Shown in pieces: positions 1 through 3,336 of a DNA stretch of 64,000 nucleotides. Origin of the DNA: an uncultured Bacteroidales bacterium (GTDB lineage: Bacteria; Bacteroidota; Bacteroidia; Bacteroidales; FEN-979); assembly GCA_903945175.1 (NCBI GenBank), contig CAJAUM010000052.1, positions 85,859 to 149,858 on the forward strand, written 5' to 3'. The stretch's first letter is position 1; the number at the start of each line of letters is the position of its first letter. The position numbers and the translations under genes were made by a program. Below the pieces are notes generated by a model that searched no databases, was not told the origin of the DNA, and worked only from the letters and a program-made list of their open reading frames with translations.

Positions 1-998
1 ATATGGAGGTTGCTTCAACGACAGCATTGAGGTCAGAAAAATTCATCCTGGATGAGGCTGTGATCATCCCGGTTGGTGGGGGCAAAGATTCAGCCGTTAC
101 ACTTGAGTTATTGGGTAACAGGCCCGGAAGCATCCCATTGATCATGAATCCAAGGGGAGCAAGTCTCGCAACCATCGCAGCCAAAGGATTTTCTCAAAAT
201 CAGTTTTTTGAAATCCAACGAACGATCGACCCAACCTTGCTGAGGTTGAATGAACAGGGTTTTCTCAACGGTCATACCCCTTTTTCTGCACTTCTGGCAT
301 TTATAACGGCTCTTTCAGCCATTGTGACAGGTCACCGGCATGTTGCCCTGTCGAATGAATCGAGCGCCAATGAAGCAACCATCGAAGGAACCGAGATCAA
401 CCATCAATATTCAAAATCATTTAAATTTGAATCGGATTTTCGGGATTATGTGAGCAGGTGGATCAGTGAAGATATCAATTATTTTAGTTTCCTCCGACCG
501 CTGAATGAATTGCAAATCGCATTTTTGTTTTCCCGTCTTTCGCAGTATCACAAGGTGTTCAAAAGCTGCAATGCAGGAAGCAAGACTGATTCGTGGTGCG
601 GCCATTGCCCAAAATGCCTGTTCACCTGCATCATTTTATCTCCGTTTATTGAAGAGGAGCAGTTGACGGGAATCTTTGGAAAAGATCTTTTTGCCGATGT
701 ATCACTGAAACCGATCTTTGACCAACTCACCGGCATGGCCGAAGAAAAACCGTTCGATTGTGTAGGCACAGTCAATGAGGTGAATGTGGCTCTTTGCGAA
801 ACCATCAGGCATCGCGAAGCGGCGGAATTGCCATTTTTGTTGAAATATTACCTGAATTCATCCGCATTCATGCAGTATAGTCAGGTTGATTTCACCAGTG
901 AACTTTTTCAGTTTTCATCAGAACATCATTTGTCGCCGGAGTTCTCCGTGATCATTGGGGAGTTGTTTGACAGAGGAAATAGCGAATTCAATGGTTGA
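1..998 (+). CDS. murL: MurL-type UDP-MurNAc-L-Ala-L-Glu epimerase, 5'-truncated by the window
   Basis: MurL epimerises the terminal L-glutamate of UDP-MurNAc-L-Ala-L-Glu to D-glutamate, an ATP-dependent cytoplasmic step known from Xanthomonas. The visible 331 residues carry the family landmarks: a PP-loop-like GGGKDS at 25-30, NGHTPFSA, an SNESSANEAT block, INHQYSKS, RPLNELQIA, KSCN, the cysteine cluster WCGHCPKC and a later PFDCVG. There is no stop upstream in frame and full-length relatives are roughly 450 residues, so about 100-120 N-terminal residues probably lie before base 1. The ATG at 3 is unlikely to be the real start. The stop overlaps the start of the MurD gene by 8 bases, which implies translational coupling and matches the MurL-MurD2 pairing known in Xanthomonas. 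The family call rests on remembered motifs, without an alignment. Confidence 0.82.
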   Translation, partial: MEVASTTALRSEKFILDEAVIIPVGGGKDSAVTLELLGNRPGSIPLIMNPRGASLATIAAKGFSQNQFFEIQRTIDPTLLRLNEQGFLNGHTPFSALLAFITALSAIVTGHRHVALSNESSANEATIEGTEINHQYSKSFKFESDFRDYVSRWISEDINYFSFLRPLNELQIAFLFSRLSQYHKVFKSCNAGSKTDSWCGHCPKCLFTCIILSPFIEEEQLTGIFGKDLFADVSLKPIFDQLTGMAEEKPFDCVGTVNEVNVALCETIRHREAAELPFLLKYYLNSSAFMQYSQVDFTSELFQFSSEHHLSPEFSVIIGELFDRGNSEFNG

Positions 999-2370
999 TC
1001 TTATCAGAAACAGGTTCACCGGATCATCCATCGTACTTCTGGGATTCGGCAGGGAGGGACAGGCGAGTTATGCGTTGCTGAGAAAAGCATTCCCTGACAA
1101 ACAGCTGTTCATAGCCGATGCCAATGAGAACATAAATGAAAATCCGCTGATTAAAGAGGATCCCCACCTGCGTTTAATTACCGGTCAGGAATACCTTTCA
1201 GAATTGAATGGCTTCGATGTGATTTTCAGGTCGCCAGGGATTCCCATCTGGAATTTGAACATTCCCCGGGAAAAAATTACTTCTCAAACAGATTTATTCT
1301 TGCAGTGTTATGCGAAACAGGTTATCGGCATTACTGGAACAAAGGGTAAAAGCACAACTTCGAGCCTGATTCATCATATCCTTCAGACTTCCGGCTTTGA
1401 TACGCTCCTGGCCGGCAACATCGGCAACCCTGTGTTTCATTTCATCGACCTGATCACTCCGGATACCAAAATCGTTTTTGAACTCTCGTCCCATCAGCTC
1501 GAATACATTCAGACTGCACCGCATATATCGGTTTTGCTGAATCTTTTCCAGGAGCATCTCGATGCCTATTCCAGTTATGAAGATTATCAATCGGCCAAGG
1601 TGAACATCACGAAATATCAGCATGCTGATGATTTCATCATTTTTAATTGTGATGATGCCCTCGTTGACCGGCAAGTTAAGCCATACGAGCGTGTTCGTAA
1701 CAGTTTTCCTTTTTCAACGGAGCGATGTGTGAACCAGGGGGGCTTTATCCGGGATGGCTGGATTTGCTTTTCAAATGGAAAGGATGTTATCCCTGTATGG
1801 AAAATTCATCAGGACAGGTTCCTTCGCGGCGAACATAATCTGAAGAATATCCTGGCTGCAGTGAATGTGGCGATGATATGCCATATTGCTCCTGAAATGA
1901 TCGAAGAGGGCATTGCTACCTTTAAAGGTCTTGAACACCGGATGGAATATGTTGGAACCTTCAGGAAAATCCATTTTTACAATGATTCCATTGCAACGAT
2001 TCCTGAAGCATGCATCGCGGCAGTAAAGGCGATTCCTGGTGTGGACACGCTCATTGCAGGCGGGTTTGACCGTGGTATCGACTATGCCGGATTGGCTGTT
2101 TTTTTATTTGGTTCAGATGTGCGGAACCTGATTTTACTCGGGGCTGCCGGAAAACGCATTGGCGAACACCTTGCGCTGATGGGAAGCAGCGGAAAGAAGA
2201 TTTTTTACATTAACAGGTTTGACGATTTCGCCTCCATTGCCTTCCGTGAAACCCGGGAGGGTGGCGTTTGCCTGTTATCACCGGCTGCAGCAAGTTATGA
2301 TGAATTTAAAAACTTCGAAGAGCGGGGAAAACGGTTCAGGGATTGCGTAAAGAATGATGTAGCAAAATAA
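991..2370 (+). CDS. murD: UDP-N-acetylmuramoyl-L-alanine--glutamate ligase (MurD, likely the L-Glu-adding MurD2 type)
   Basis: This ATP-dependent Mur ligase adds glutamate to UDP-MurNAc-L-Ala in the cytoplasm. From the ATG at 991 it has 459 residues. It shows an N-terminal Rossmann-like UDP-binding segment (VLLGFGREGQAS near 13-25), the P-loop GTKGKST near 116-122, the central ELSSHQLE block, the EHLDAY segment, LEHRME, and the DSIATIP and GGFDRG motifs of the C-terminal domain. I chose the ATG at 991 over an in-frame TTG at 955 because it gives a normal MurD N terminus and an 8-base overlap with the upstream MurL gene. Coupling to MurL suggests L-Glu as substrate in place of D-Glu; this is inferred from context, since the sequence alone does not show stereospecificity. 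Confidence 0.88.
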   Translation: MVDLIRNRFTGSSIVLLGFGREGQASYALLRKAFPDKQLFIADANENINENPLIKEDPHLRLITGQEYLSELNGFDVIFRSPGIPIWNLNIPREKITSQTDLFLQCYAKQVIGITGTKGKSTTSSLIHHILQTSGFDTLLAGNIGNPVFHFIDLITPDTKIVFELSSHQLEYIQTAPHISVLLNLFQEHLDAYSSYEDYQSAKVNITKYQHADDFIIFNCDDALVDRQVKPYERVRNSFPFSTERCVNQGGFIRDGWICFSNGKDVIPVWKIHQDRFLRGEHNLKNILAAVNVAMICHIAPEMIEEGIATFKGLEHRMEYVGTFRKIHFYNDSIATIPEACIAAVKAIPGVDTLIAGGFDRGIDYAGLAVFLFGSDVRNLILLGAAGKRIGEHLALMGSSGKKIFYINRFDDFASIAFRETREGGVCLLSPAAASYDEFKNFEERGKRFRDCVKNDVAK

Positions 2371-2385
2371 CGAAATCGCGAAACG

Positions 2386-3336
2386 ATGAAGAGAAGATTT
2401 TTTGGCTTTATAGGTTGTTTGATTGTTATATCGGGACAGGTAGTGGCCCAGCAAGTTGACTATAATTCATTGGTTAACAGGTATATTCAAACGTATAAGG
2501 ACATTGCGATAAAGGAGATGATGGTTTACCGGGTGCCGGCAAGCATCACACTCGCCCAGGGGATACTCGAATCGAATGTGGGCCGAAGCAAACTCGCAAC
2601 GCAGGCCAACAATCACTTTGGGATCAAATGCCACAAAGAATGGTTTGGCAAGACCTTTTACCAGGATGATGACATGCCCAATGAATGTTTCAGGAAGTAT
2701 GACAATGCGATTGAGTCGTTTCGCGACCATTCTTATTTTCTTACGCAGCGGGACCGTTACAAAGGGCTGTTCGAACTCGATGTAAATGATTACAAGGGAT
2801 GGGCCAATGGCGTGCAGTCAGCAGGGTATGCCACAGATCCCCGCTATGCTGAAAAACTGATTCAAACAATCGAAAATTTTTCTTTGTTCAGGTTTGACAA
2901 TGCCAATTTTGCGACAGCCTTTGGCGACAGTCTGATGGATTTGGATAATCCTGCAAAACTGGCGTGGCTTTGCAGATTCATTGTGATACAAAAGGGTCCG
3001 AACAATCGGAATATTTTTGAAAATAACCGGTTACAAATGACCATTGCCCGCAAGGATGATAACGTATATATCCTGGCCCGCGATTTTGACATTTCGGTAA
3101 CCCATTTATTATCGTACAATGATCTTCATTATGCCACTGCGCTAAGGCCCGGGCAGATTGTGTATCTAGAAAGCAAGCGCCGCAAGGGTGCTGCCGCAAA
3201 ACATTTGGTAGAGCGGGGTGAGACACTTTACACCATTTCGCAGCTATATGGGATCAAACTTAAAATGCTCTATAAGCGGAACGACCTTCAGGAAGGAGTT
3301 GAACCTGCTGCCGGCATGGTGCTGGAATTAAGGTAG
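2386..3336 (+). CDS. Secreted glucosaminidase with two C-terminal LysM domains
   Basis: A 316-residue exported peptidoglycan hydrolase. It has a signal peptide at residues 1-21 (hydrophobic GFIGCLIVISG, then VVAQQ). A glucosaminidase domain follows (Pfam PF01832 type, FlgJ/AcmA-like), with the signature LAQGILESNVGRSKLA containing the catalytic-type Glu, NNHFGIKC and FRKYDNAIESFRDHS. The C-terminal third carries two LysM-like segments, DNVYILARDFDIS...NDL and HLVERGETLYTISQLYGI...RND, for binding peptidoglycan. It starts 15 bases after murD and is probably co-transcribed with the precursor genes, which suits a cell-wall remodelling role. The 3' end overlaps the convergent next gene by 9 bases. 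Confidence 0.88.
   Translation: MKRRFFGFIGCLIVISGQVVAQQVDYNSLVNRYIQTYKDIAIKEMMVYRVPASITLAQGILESNVGRSKLATQANNHFGIKCHKEWFGKTFYQDDDMPNECFRKYDNAIESFRDHSYFLTQRDRYKGLFELDVNDYKGWANGVQSAGYATDPRYAEKLIQTIENFSLFRFDNANFATAFGDSLMDLDNPAKLAWLCRFIVIQKGPNNRNIFENNRLQMTIARKDDNVYILARDFDISVTHLLSYNDLHYATALRPGQIVYLESKRRKGAAAKHLVERGETLYTISQLYGIKLKMLYKRNDLQEGVEPAAGMVLELR

Follow-up and report, generated by a model that had tools for sequence, protein, structure and literature searches.

Bacterial peptidoglycan as a rule contains D-glutamate (D-Glu), which is usually supplied by the glutamate racemase MurI. A different route is reportedly used in Xanthomonas, where MurD2 adds L-Glu to UDP-MurNAc-L-Ala and MurL then epimerises it, replacing both MurI and the addition of D-Glu. 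Here a murL-murD2 pair is described from an uncultured Bacteroidales bacterium of the lineage FEN-979, together with a truncated MurD that the same genome carries in its division and cell wall (dcw) cluster. The pair opens a stretch of 64,000 nucleotides (the window; positions 85,859 to 149,858 of contig CAJAUM010000052.1, assembly GCA_903945175.1), and the tail end of murL is the first thing encoded there.

In the consulted text of a review (PMC8788868), the MurL route is reported as confined to a comparatively small number of genera in the Proteobacteria and Actinobacteria, and the pathway as already pursued as a narrow-spectrum drug target. Distant MurL orthologues are mentioned in a fungus, cyanobacteria and an amoeba in the available sections of a second paper (PMC5808125), and in those of a Brachyspira paper the name murL is used for a glutamate racemase (PMC2650404). 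A literature search on MurL with MurD2, Bacteroidetes, D-glutamate and related terms found no paper on MurL in Bacteroidota, and the scale of the route in Bacteroidales, the MurD tail and the MurL fold were likewise not found in the literature searched. As the pathway is known from Xanthomonas, what would be new is its occurrence in Bacteroidales and the orphan MurD tail linked to it.

The murL-murD2 pair

The pair very probably makes cell-wall D-Glu directly on the wall precursor, as judged from the genes themselves and from what the parent genome (4.41 Mb in 155 contigs, 98.1% complete, 1.9% contamination) otherwise holds. Window positions 3-998 form an open frame of 331 residues that continues upstream, and the complete gene, found on contig C52 from base 85456 (L001:11598-12998), encodes 466 aa. 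The initial annotation had noted three distinctive MurL motifs in the visible residues, and all of them were located (GGGKDS, INHQYSKS and WCGHCPKC, the last at 594-617). They are no chance matches, as 427 residues of the full protein are covered by its match to NF041275, the NCBIfam model of Xanthomonadales MurL (E 3.3e-78, 263 bits). The curated cut-off of this model, 700 bits, is reached neither by the window MurL nor by any of the 67 matching genomes, and the protein is therefore not filed under that clade model. With the upstream contig recovered, as had been proposed, MurL could be aligned along its length with that of Xanthomonas sacchari, at 32% identity across 434 positions. GGGKDS and all four cysteines of the Cys4 motif are invariant when 42 MurLs, including the window protein, are aligned, and 51 of the 67 invariant positions are identical in X. 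sacchari MurL. A reading of the protein as an ordinary PP-loop tRNA enzyme was rejected: its only NCBIfam match is MurL, and its best sequence match in the PDB is just a 44-residue PP-loop stretch (E 0.01).

The murL stop (996-998) overlaps the ATG of the ligase gene at 991 by 8 bases, exactly as first described, and an in-frame TTG at 955 would increase the overlap to 44 bases. The ligase scores 317 bits against the MurD model TIGR01087 (cut-off 212). According to the published MurD2 text consulted (PMC8788868), the L-Glu preference of X. oryzae MurD2 is set by E197 and R358, which correspond to D182 and K348 of E. coli MurD; the double change to Asp/Lys converts the Xanthomonas enzyme to a D-Glu ligase, and E. 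coli MurD with K319T accepts L-Glu. The window ligase has E188 and R361 at D182 and K348, and the canonical set Asp182/Lys319/Lys348 (E. coli numbering) is replaced throughout by Glu, Ile and Arg. This Glu/Ile/Arg set is present in all 26 MurL-linked MurDs counted (the window and 25 of 26 relatives, the remaining relative being cut short), and the MurD linked to murL in X. sacchari has it too; that protein carries the annotation murD, and the name MurD2 is given to it here from its linkage and residues. Asp, Lys and Lys stand at these positions in each of the 19 full-length dcw MurDs examined. Isoleucine at K319 may be a further mark of MurD2, one that is absent from the published text consulted (PMC8788868). 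In a quick tree of 42 sequences, in which very long branches, those of Xanthomonas and E. coli, drew a tool warning, the MurD2s including those of Xanthomonas lie on one side of a branch with a Shimodaira-Hasegawa-like approximate likelihood ratio (SH-aLRT) of 99.

Other sources of D-Glu were sought across the genome. Neither PF01177 nor TIGR00067 gave a MurI match (in a control search PF01177 found members in 10 of 14 known genomes), and the model for D-amino-acid aminotransferase (Dat) reached 32 bits, far below its cut-off of 277. A second full-length MurD was not found by TIGR01087 in the genome; the search returned 8 matches, namely the window gene, a 185-codon frame of the dcw cluster that encodes no more of MurD than its C-terminal domain (182 aa; the stub) and six weak ones. 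One of the weak matches is in an 880-codon frame of contig C67 that is a MurG-MurC fusion and not MurD, and two share a 495-codon frame taken by eye for murE, so that three of the six are assigned. MurL, a linked MurD2 of the L-Glu type and the lack of any MurI match occur together in this genome. The non-canonical route to D-Glu put forward in the initial annotation is supported by the full MurL, by the MurD2 residues and by the searches for murI and a second murD that the annotation had suggested, which found neither MurI nor a second full-length MurD. The stereochemistry of the MurD2 product and its epimerisation by MurL are what we infer from these data.

Distribution of MurL and MurI

The set of relatives comprised 120 genomes, the window's own and 119 others. 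MurL was matched in 67 of them (including G389, with a contig-end piece that has one internal TGA) and MurI was over its cut-off in 48; none had both and five had neither. Counted without regard to kinship, the probability of this zero overlap is 3e-28, and kinship shrinks the true number of independent events far below the genome counts.

Two of the genomes with neither gene, G319 and G330, carry the MurD stub, and another, G334, is 69% complete. A further one, G411, has a full-length dcw MurD and no MurI over cut-off, and holds a MurL piece (residues ~313-348) abutting a MurD2 C-terminal piece (427-449; L207, C54:16980-17087), which is possibly the scar of a lost murL-murD2 pair or an assembly fault. 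In G352 (L200), which is 98% complete, no MurL was found by family and alignment searches and no MurI was found, and a diverged 170-aa MurD tail lies between mraY and ftsW.

When GTDB species genomes were scanned with the MurL alignment, at least 575 stretches were confirmed. The 80 kept have the titles Bacteroidales, Bacteroidetes, Bacteroidota or Bacteroidia save three, which are one Marinifilum metagenome-assembled genome (MAG), one Lentimicrobium MAG and one 'uncultured bacterium'. Three of the 296 genomes in a sample of the phylum matched MurL, convincingly in the window's own genome only, the other two matches being of 20-21.5 bits and to part of the model. The route is common in this order and, given the single convincing match among 296 genomes, looks rare in the phylum. 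A protein search scored at least 8000 relatives of MurL, and among the 120 listed several are labelled epimerase by the Joint Genome Institute (JGI); such a label is already in the databases, though the review names only Proteobacteria and Actinobacteria.

A MurL-like protein annotated as hypothetical is also encoded on a mobilizable plasmid of Pseudonocardia alni (L210:3764-5164), where no murD is annotated in the 9-kb stretch (the PLSDB gene table is incomplete), and on two more Pseudonocardia plasmids.

A truncated MurD in the dcw cluster

The genome-wide MurD search led to the dcw cluster on contig C67, which has the order mraZ, rsmH, penicillin-binding protein (PBP), murE, mraY, the 182-aa MurD C-terminal domain, ftsW, the murG-murC fusion, ftsQ, ftsA and ftsZ. 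Four of these, mraY, FtsW, MurG-MurC and the tail, were compared with NCBIfam models (FtsW being below cut-off), and the other frames were read by eye. The murD slot, between mraY and ftsW, therefore holds the C-terminal domain only, which matches positions 269-440 of TIGR01087 with 159 bits. Both halves of the MurG-MurC fusion, which was seen in this genome, are over their NCBIfam cut-offs (284 vs 250 and 366 vs 335 bits).

The murD slot was read in 73 loci and contains a stub in 52 and a full-length gene in 19; one locus is cut by a contig end (G389) and one is without a match (G413). Stubs occur in 49 of the 67 MurL genomes, the rest being 12 with a full-length dcw MurD, G389, G413 and four assemblies without a good mraY match (G296, G299, G300 and G357); the other three stubs belong to the group of five genomes with neither gene. 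In 47 of the 48 MurI genomes the MurD match lies in a frame of 436 codons or more (six of these were read in place), the remaining one, G354, is 70% complete and has no MurD match, and G343 has an additional 111-codon MurD piece. Another 35 MurL genomes (by their coordinates, two are already in the first set) gave 15 stub-length frames (13 in the 33 new genomes) and 18 full-length MurD frames, with MurD2 only in one genome and no MurD in another. Thirty loci fetched from this further set included 12 stub loci, with ftsW downstream in all 12 and mraY upstream in 10.

The stub is exactly 182 aa long in 39 of the 52 loci and 170-199 aa in all of them, it begins with MTxE in 37, and no internal stop was seen in any listed stub match. 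Ratios of nonsynonymous to synonymous substitution (dN/dS; NG86, 16 pairs) were 0.03-0.10 in 12 pairs and zero in one near-identical pair, and three pairs were dS-saturated. The neighbours, where computable, gave 0.02-0.07 (mraY) and 0.01-0.06 (ftsW), and of the 12 pairs with a non-zero value the stub exceeded both neighbours in 10. The lysines of the glutamate site are eroded (K348 survives in 6 of the 52 stubs, K319 in 24) and the rest of the substrate motif drifts, while D317 is kept in all 52, R302 in 46, and the fold residues (motifs HR.E, NDS, GG and LLSP) largely so. There are 2063 stub homologues in the database at E 1e-10, within the search length limits; 113 of the 120 listed are exactly 182 aa, and those with names are listed as hypothetical protein, cyanophycin synthetase, MurD or similar. 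Seven more distant carriers (35-43% identity, mostly ruminant-gut MAGs by title) all have the stub upstream of ftsW, and six of them have mraY on its other side. The structural model of the stub, with a predicted local distance difference test (pLDDT) score of 79, matches the C-terminal domain of solved MurDs (Foldseek template modelling (TM) score 0.70 to 7u35). From its conserved length, the purifying selection and the homologues, the stub is read as a selected protein, and it is predicted to be catalytically dead.

At the position where the stub starts, an internal Met is present in all 19 full-length dcw MurDs. The same Met is found in Parabacteroides and is absent in Bernardetia (another order) and E. 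coli. The 18 bases before it are A-rich (0.51 vs 0.33 at other Met codons, p 0.00013), and the excess over the expectation from amino acids and codon usage is weak (0.51 vs 0.46, p 0.0024), so much of the A-richness reflects an Asn/Lys-rich linker. What is left is a hint that internal initiation in full-length murD may give the same short protein. On a tree of FtsW and MraY the stub label takes 8 changes (9 counting G411; 2 are forced), but this was not accepted as proof of many independent truncations, as a single origin was not rejected by the approximately unbiased (AU) test (p 0.194) once six rows had been removed (G389, which is cut, and five others that are long or odd).

Predicted fold and chemistry of MurL

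MurL is described as without known conserved domains in the consulted text of PMC8788868. Its model gives a structural match well above background to the PP-loop fold of QueC, and a QueC/QatC-like PP-loop fold with a Cys4 motif is predicted; the Cys motif of QueC is C(x)8CxxCxxC (PMC13329287, available sections). Two results count against this fold. Foldseek gave no MurL match at E 0.001, the assignment coming from a VIA second look, and the QueC family model PF06508 does not match MurL at E 1, and MurL is for this reason called QueC-like in fold only. A profile comparison with one E. coli QueC sequence gave a probability of only 12.7%, on the Cys motif. The predicted fold and motif fit the carboxylate adenylation scheme proposed for MurL, which is a published hypothesis (PMC8788868). 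In this scheme adenylation by MurL at the alpha-carboxylate of the L-Glu residue (AMP + PPi) would acidify the alpha-proton and so allow a one-way inversion and hydrolysis. If the QueC-like fold is true, it offers a concrete active site for MurL to be examined.

Interpretation and alternative explanations

We consider it probable that the pathway and the stub have one overall explanation, a displaced dcw MurD with a retained tail. Once D-Glu is made by MurL-MurD2, the canonical MurD would lose its substrate; the UDP- and ATP-binding domains of the dcw MurD would then be deleted and its C-terminal domain kept, and the retained tail would most likely serve as a dock within the cytoplasmic Mur assembly at mraY-ftsW-murG. 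In other bacteria Mur ligases interact with MurG and MreB (PMC6420597, available sections), and a retained docking domain beside the MurG-MurC fusion would be the simplest reading of what the stub does. If the C-terminal part of MurD were needed structurally, both the stub and the full-length states in MurL genomes would be explained. It could well be that in many Bacteroidales the switch to MurL-MurD2 made the old dcw MurD a stand-alone, non-catalytic component of the wall machinery, under selection and with a conserved internal start, although the balance tips slightly the other way; if true, MurD has a second, structural job that is separable from its ligase activity.

Several observations weigh against this explanation. 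The docking role given to the stub in the Mur assembly is a guess based on location and conservation, and our confidence in it falls just short of even. A full-length MurD frame is present in 12 of the 67 MurL genomes and in 18 of the 33 further ones. The 12 (G377, G349, G385, G388, G363, G383, G403, G412, G382, G387, G350 and G364) have no MurI over cut-off, and their dcw MurDs keep all the catalytic residues checked, except for Asp at N271 in G403. As these genomes keep a canonical dcw MurD, ligase loss is not an automatic consequence of MurL. The window's genome has one DapF frame, and DapF of Chlamydia has glutamate racemase activity (PMC5885031, available sections), so DapF may be a second, minor source of D-Glu. 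A PF01177 relative is encoded by 13 of the 67 MurL genomes. In 12 genomes the only TIGR00067 matches are below cut-off; 11 of these 12 have MurL, and all 11 are among the 13. Most such PF01177 relatives are of 230-267 aa with a high PF01177 and a low TIGR00067 score; they look like relatives of aspartate racemase, and they may also racemise glutamate.

Three other explanations were weighed. The orphan tail could be a regulatory subunit of MurD2 or MurL, such as a dipeptide holder or an in-trans lid on the MurD2 active site, and this is unlikely. It would account for the restriction of stubs to MurL genomes (49) or genomes with neither gene found (3), with full-length MurD in 47 MurI genomes, and for the retention of R302 and D317 while the D-Glu contacts drift, but MurD2 has its own C-terminal domain, the 12 MurL genomes with a full-length dcw MurD do without a stub, and the stub gene is in the dcw cluster here and not beside murL. 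A decaying pseudogene, left without a function of its own after displacement by murL-murD2, is less probable still. Against it stand the low dN/dS in 12 of 16 pairs, the narrow length range and frequent MTxE start, the lack of stops in the listed matches, the conservation of D317 and R302, the listed homologues that are nearly all 182 aa long and the position of the stub in the seven distant carriers; decay would agree with the loss of two of the three domains, the eroded K348 and K319 and a dN/dS mostly above those of both neighbours. That the window MurD is an ordinary D-Glu ligase, supplied by DapF, an aminotransferase or the environment, with MurL acting elsewhere, is very improbable, since despite the presence of DapF with its racemase precedent in Chlamydia (PMC5885031) and a TIGR01087 score that names the protein MurD, the residues at the L-Glu-preference sites (PMC8788868) are those of MurD2 in 26 of 26 MurL-linked MurDs, MurL and over-cut-off MurI are mutually exclusive in the 120 genomes, and no Dat is over its cut-off.

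A large and mostly uncultured part of the Bacteroidales appears to have swapped MurI for an epimerisation carried out on the wall precursor. Relatives show MurL and MurI in paired presence and absence, by which this replacement can be tested. A role beyond catalysis for a Mur ligase domain is suggested by the retained MurD tail and would bear on how the cytoplasmic wall enzymes hold together.

Features and neighbouring genes

Coordinates are collected in Table 1. Promoter and terminator scans around the murL-murD2 pair were at chance level. Directly after murD2, at 2386-3336 on the forward strand, is a gene for a FlgJ/GsmA-type glucosaminidase-like protein (E 2e-34, below the model cut-off), possibly a wall-hydrolase neighbour of the pair.

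Table 1. Features of the murL-murD2 pair (window positions) and of the MurG-MurC fusion (locus coordinates)
Feature	Position	Strand	Description	Basis or remark
murL	1..998	+	3' 331 of 466 codons; 135 codons upstream of the window edge	full protein NF041275, E 3.3e-78
PP-loop motif GGGKDS	75..92	+	residues 160-165	invariant in 42 aligned MurLs
INHQYSKS motif	396..419	+	residues 267-274	N268-K273 invariant in 42 MurLs
Cys4 motif	567..617	+	C324-x9-C334-x2-C337-x2-C340	predicted QueC-type metal site
murD2	991..2370	+	459 aa from ATG 991; 8-base overlap with murL stop	TIGR01087
E188	1552..1554	+	at E. coli MurD D182	alignment; Asp in 19/19 full-length dcw MurDs
I334	1990..1992	+	at E. coli MurD K319	Ile shared with the MurL-linked MurD of X. 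sacchari
R361	2071..2073	+	at E. coli MurD K348	alignment
MurG-MurC fusion	L013:4732-7299, contig C67	-	one 855-aa open reading frame (ORF)	

Comparison with known systems

The closest described system is MurL/MurD2 of X. oryzae (XOO_1319/XOO_1320), which was compared here through the X. sacchari pair and belongs to another phylum than this Bacteroidales genome. The order murL then murD is the same in X. sacchari, with an overlap of 20 bases as against 8 here, and its linked MurD is 29% identical to the window protein. Differences in detail include a W in X. sacchari MurL at the position of Y271 in the INHQYSKS motif, and Pro and Phe in Xanthomonas MurD2 at E. coli positions 414/416, where the window MurD has Ala and Tyr. 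According to the consulted text of PMC8788868, X. oryzae has no D-Glu-forming gene, and here no MurI was found. The C-terminal MurD stub is a feature of the present dcw cluster, the comparison with Xanthomonas having covered the murL-murD pair.

The QueC family, which includes QatC and Cap9 of phage defence, differs from MurL in its gene context and, judged by homology to MurL, in its substrate. With canonical MurD (E. coli, P. aeruginosa) the stub shares C-terminal domain 3; it differs in having neither the UDP-binding nor the ATPase domain, in the loss of K348 in 46 of 52 cases, and in standing alone.

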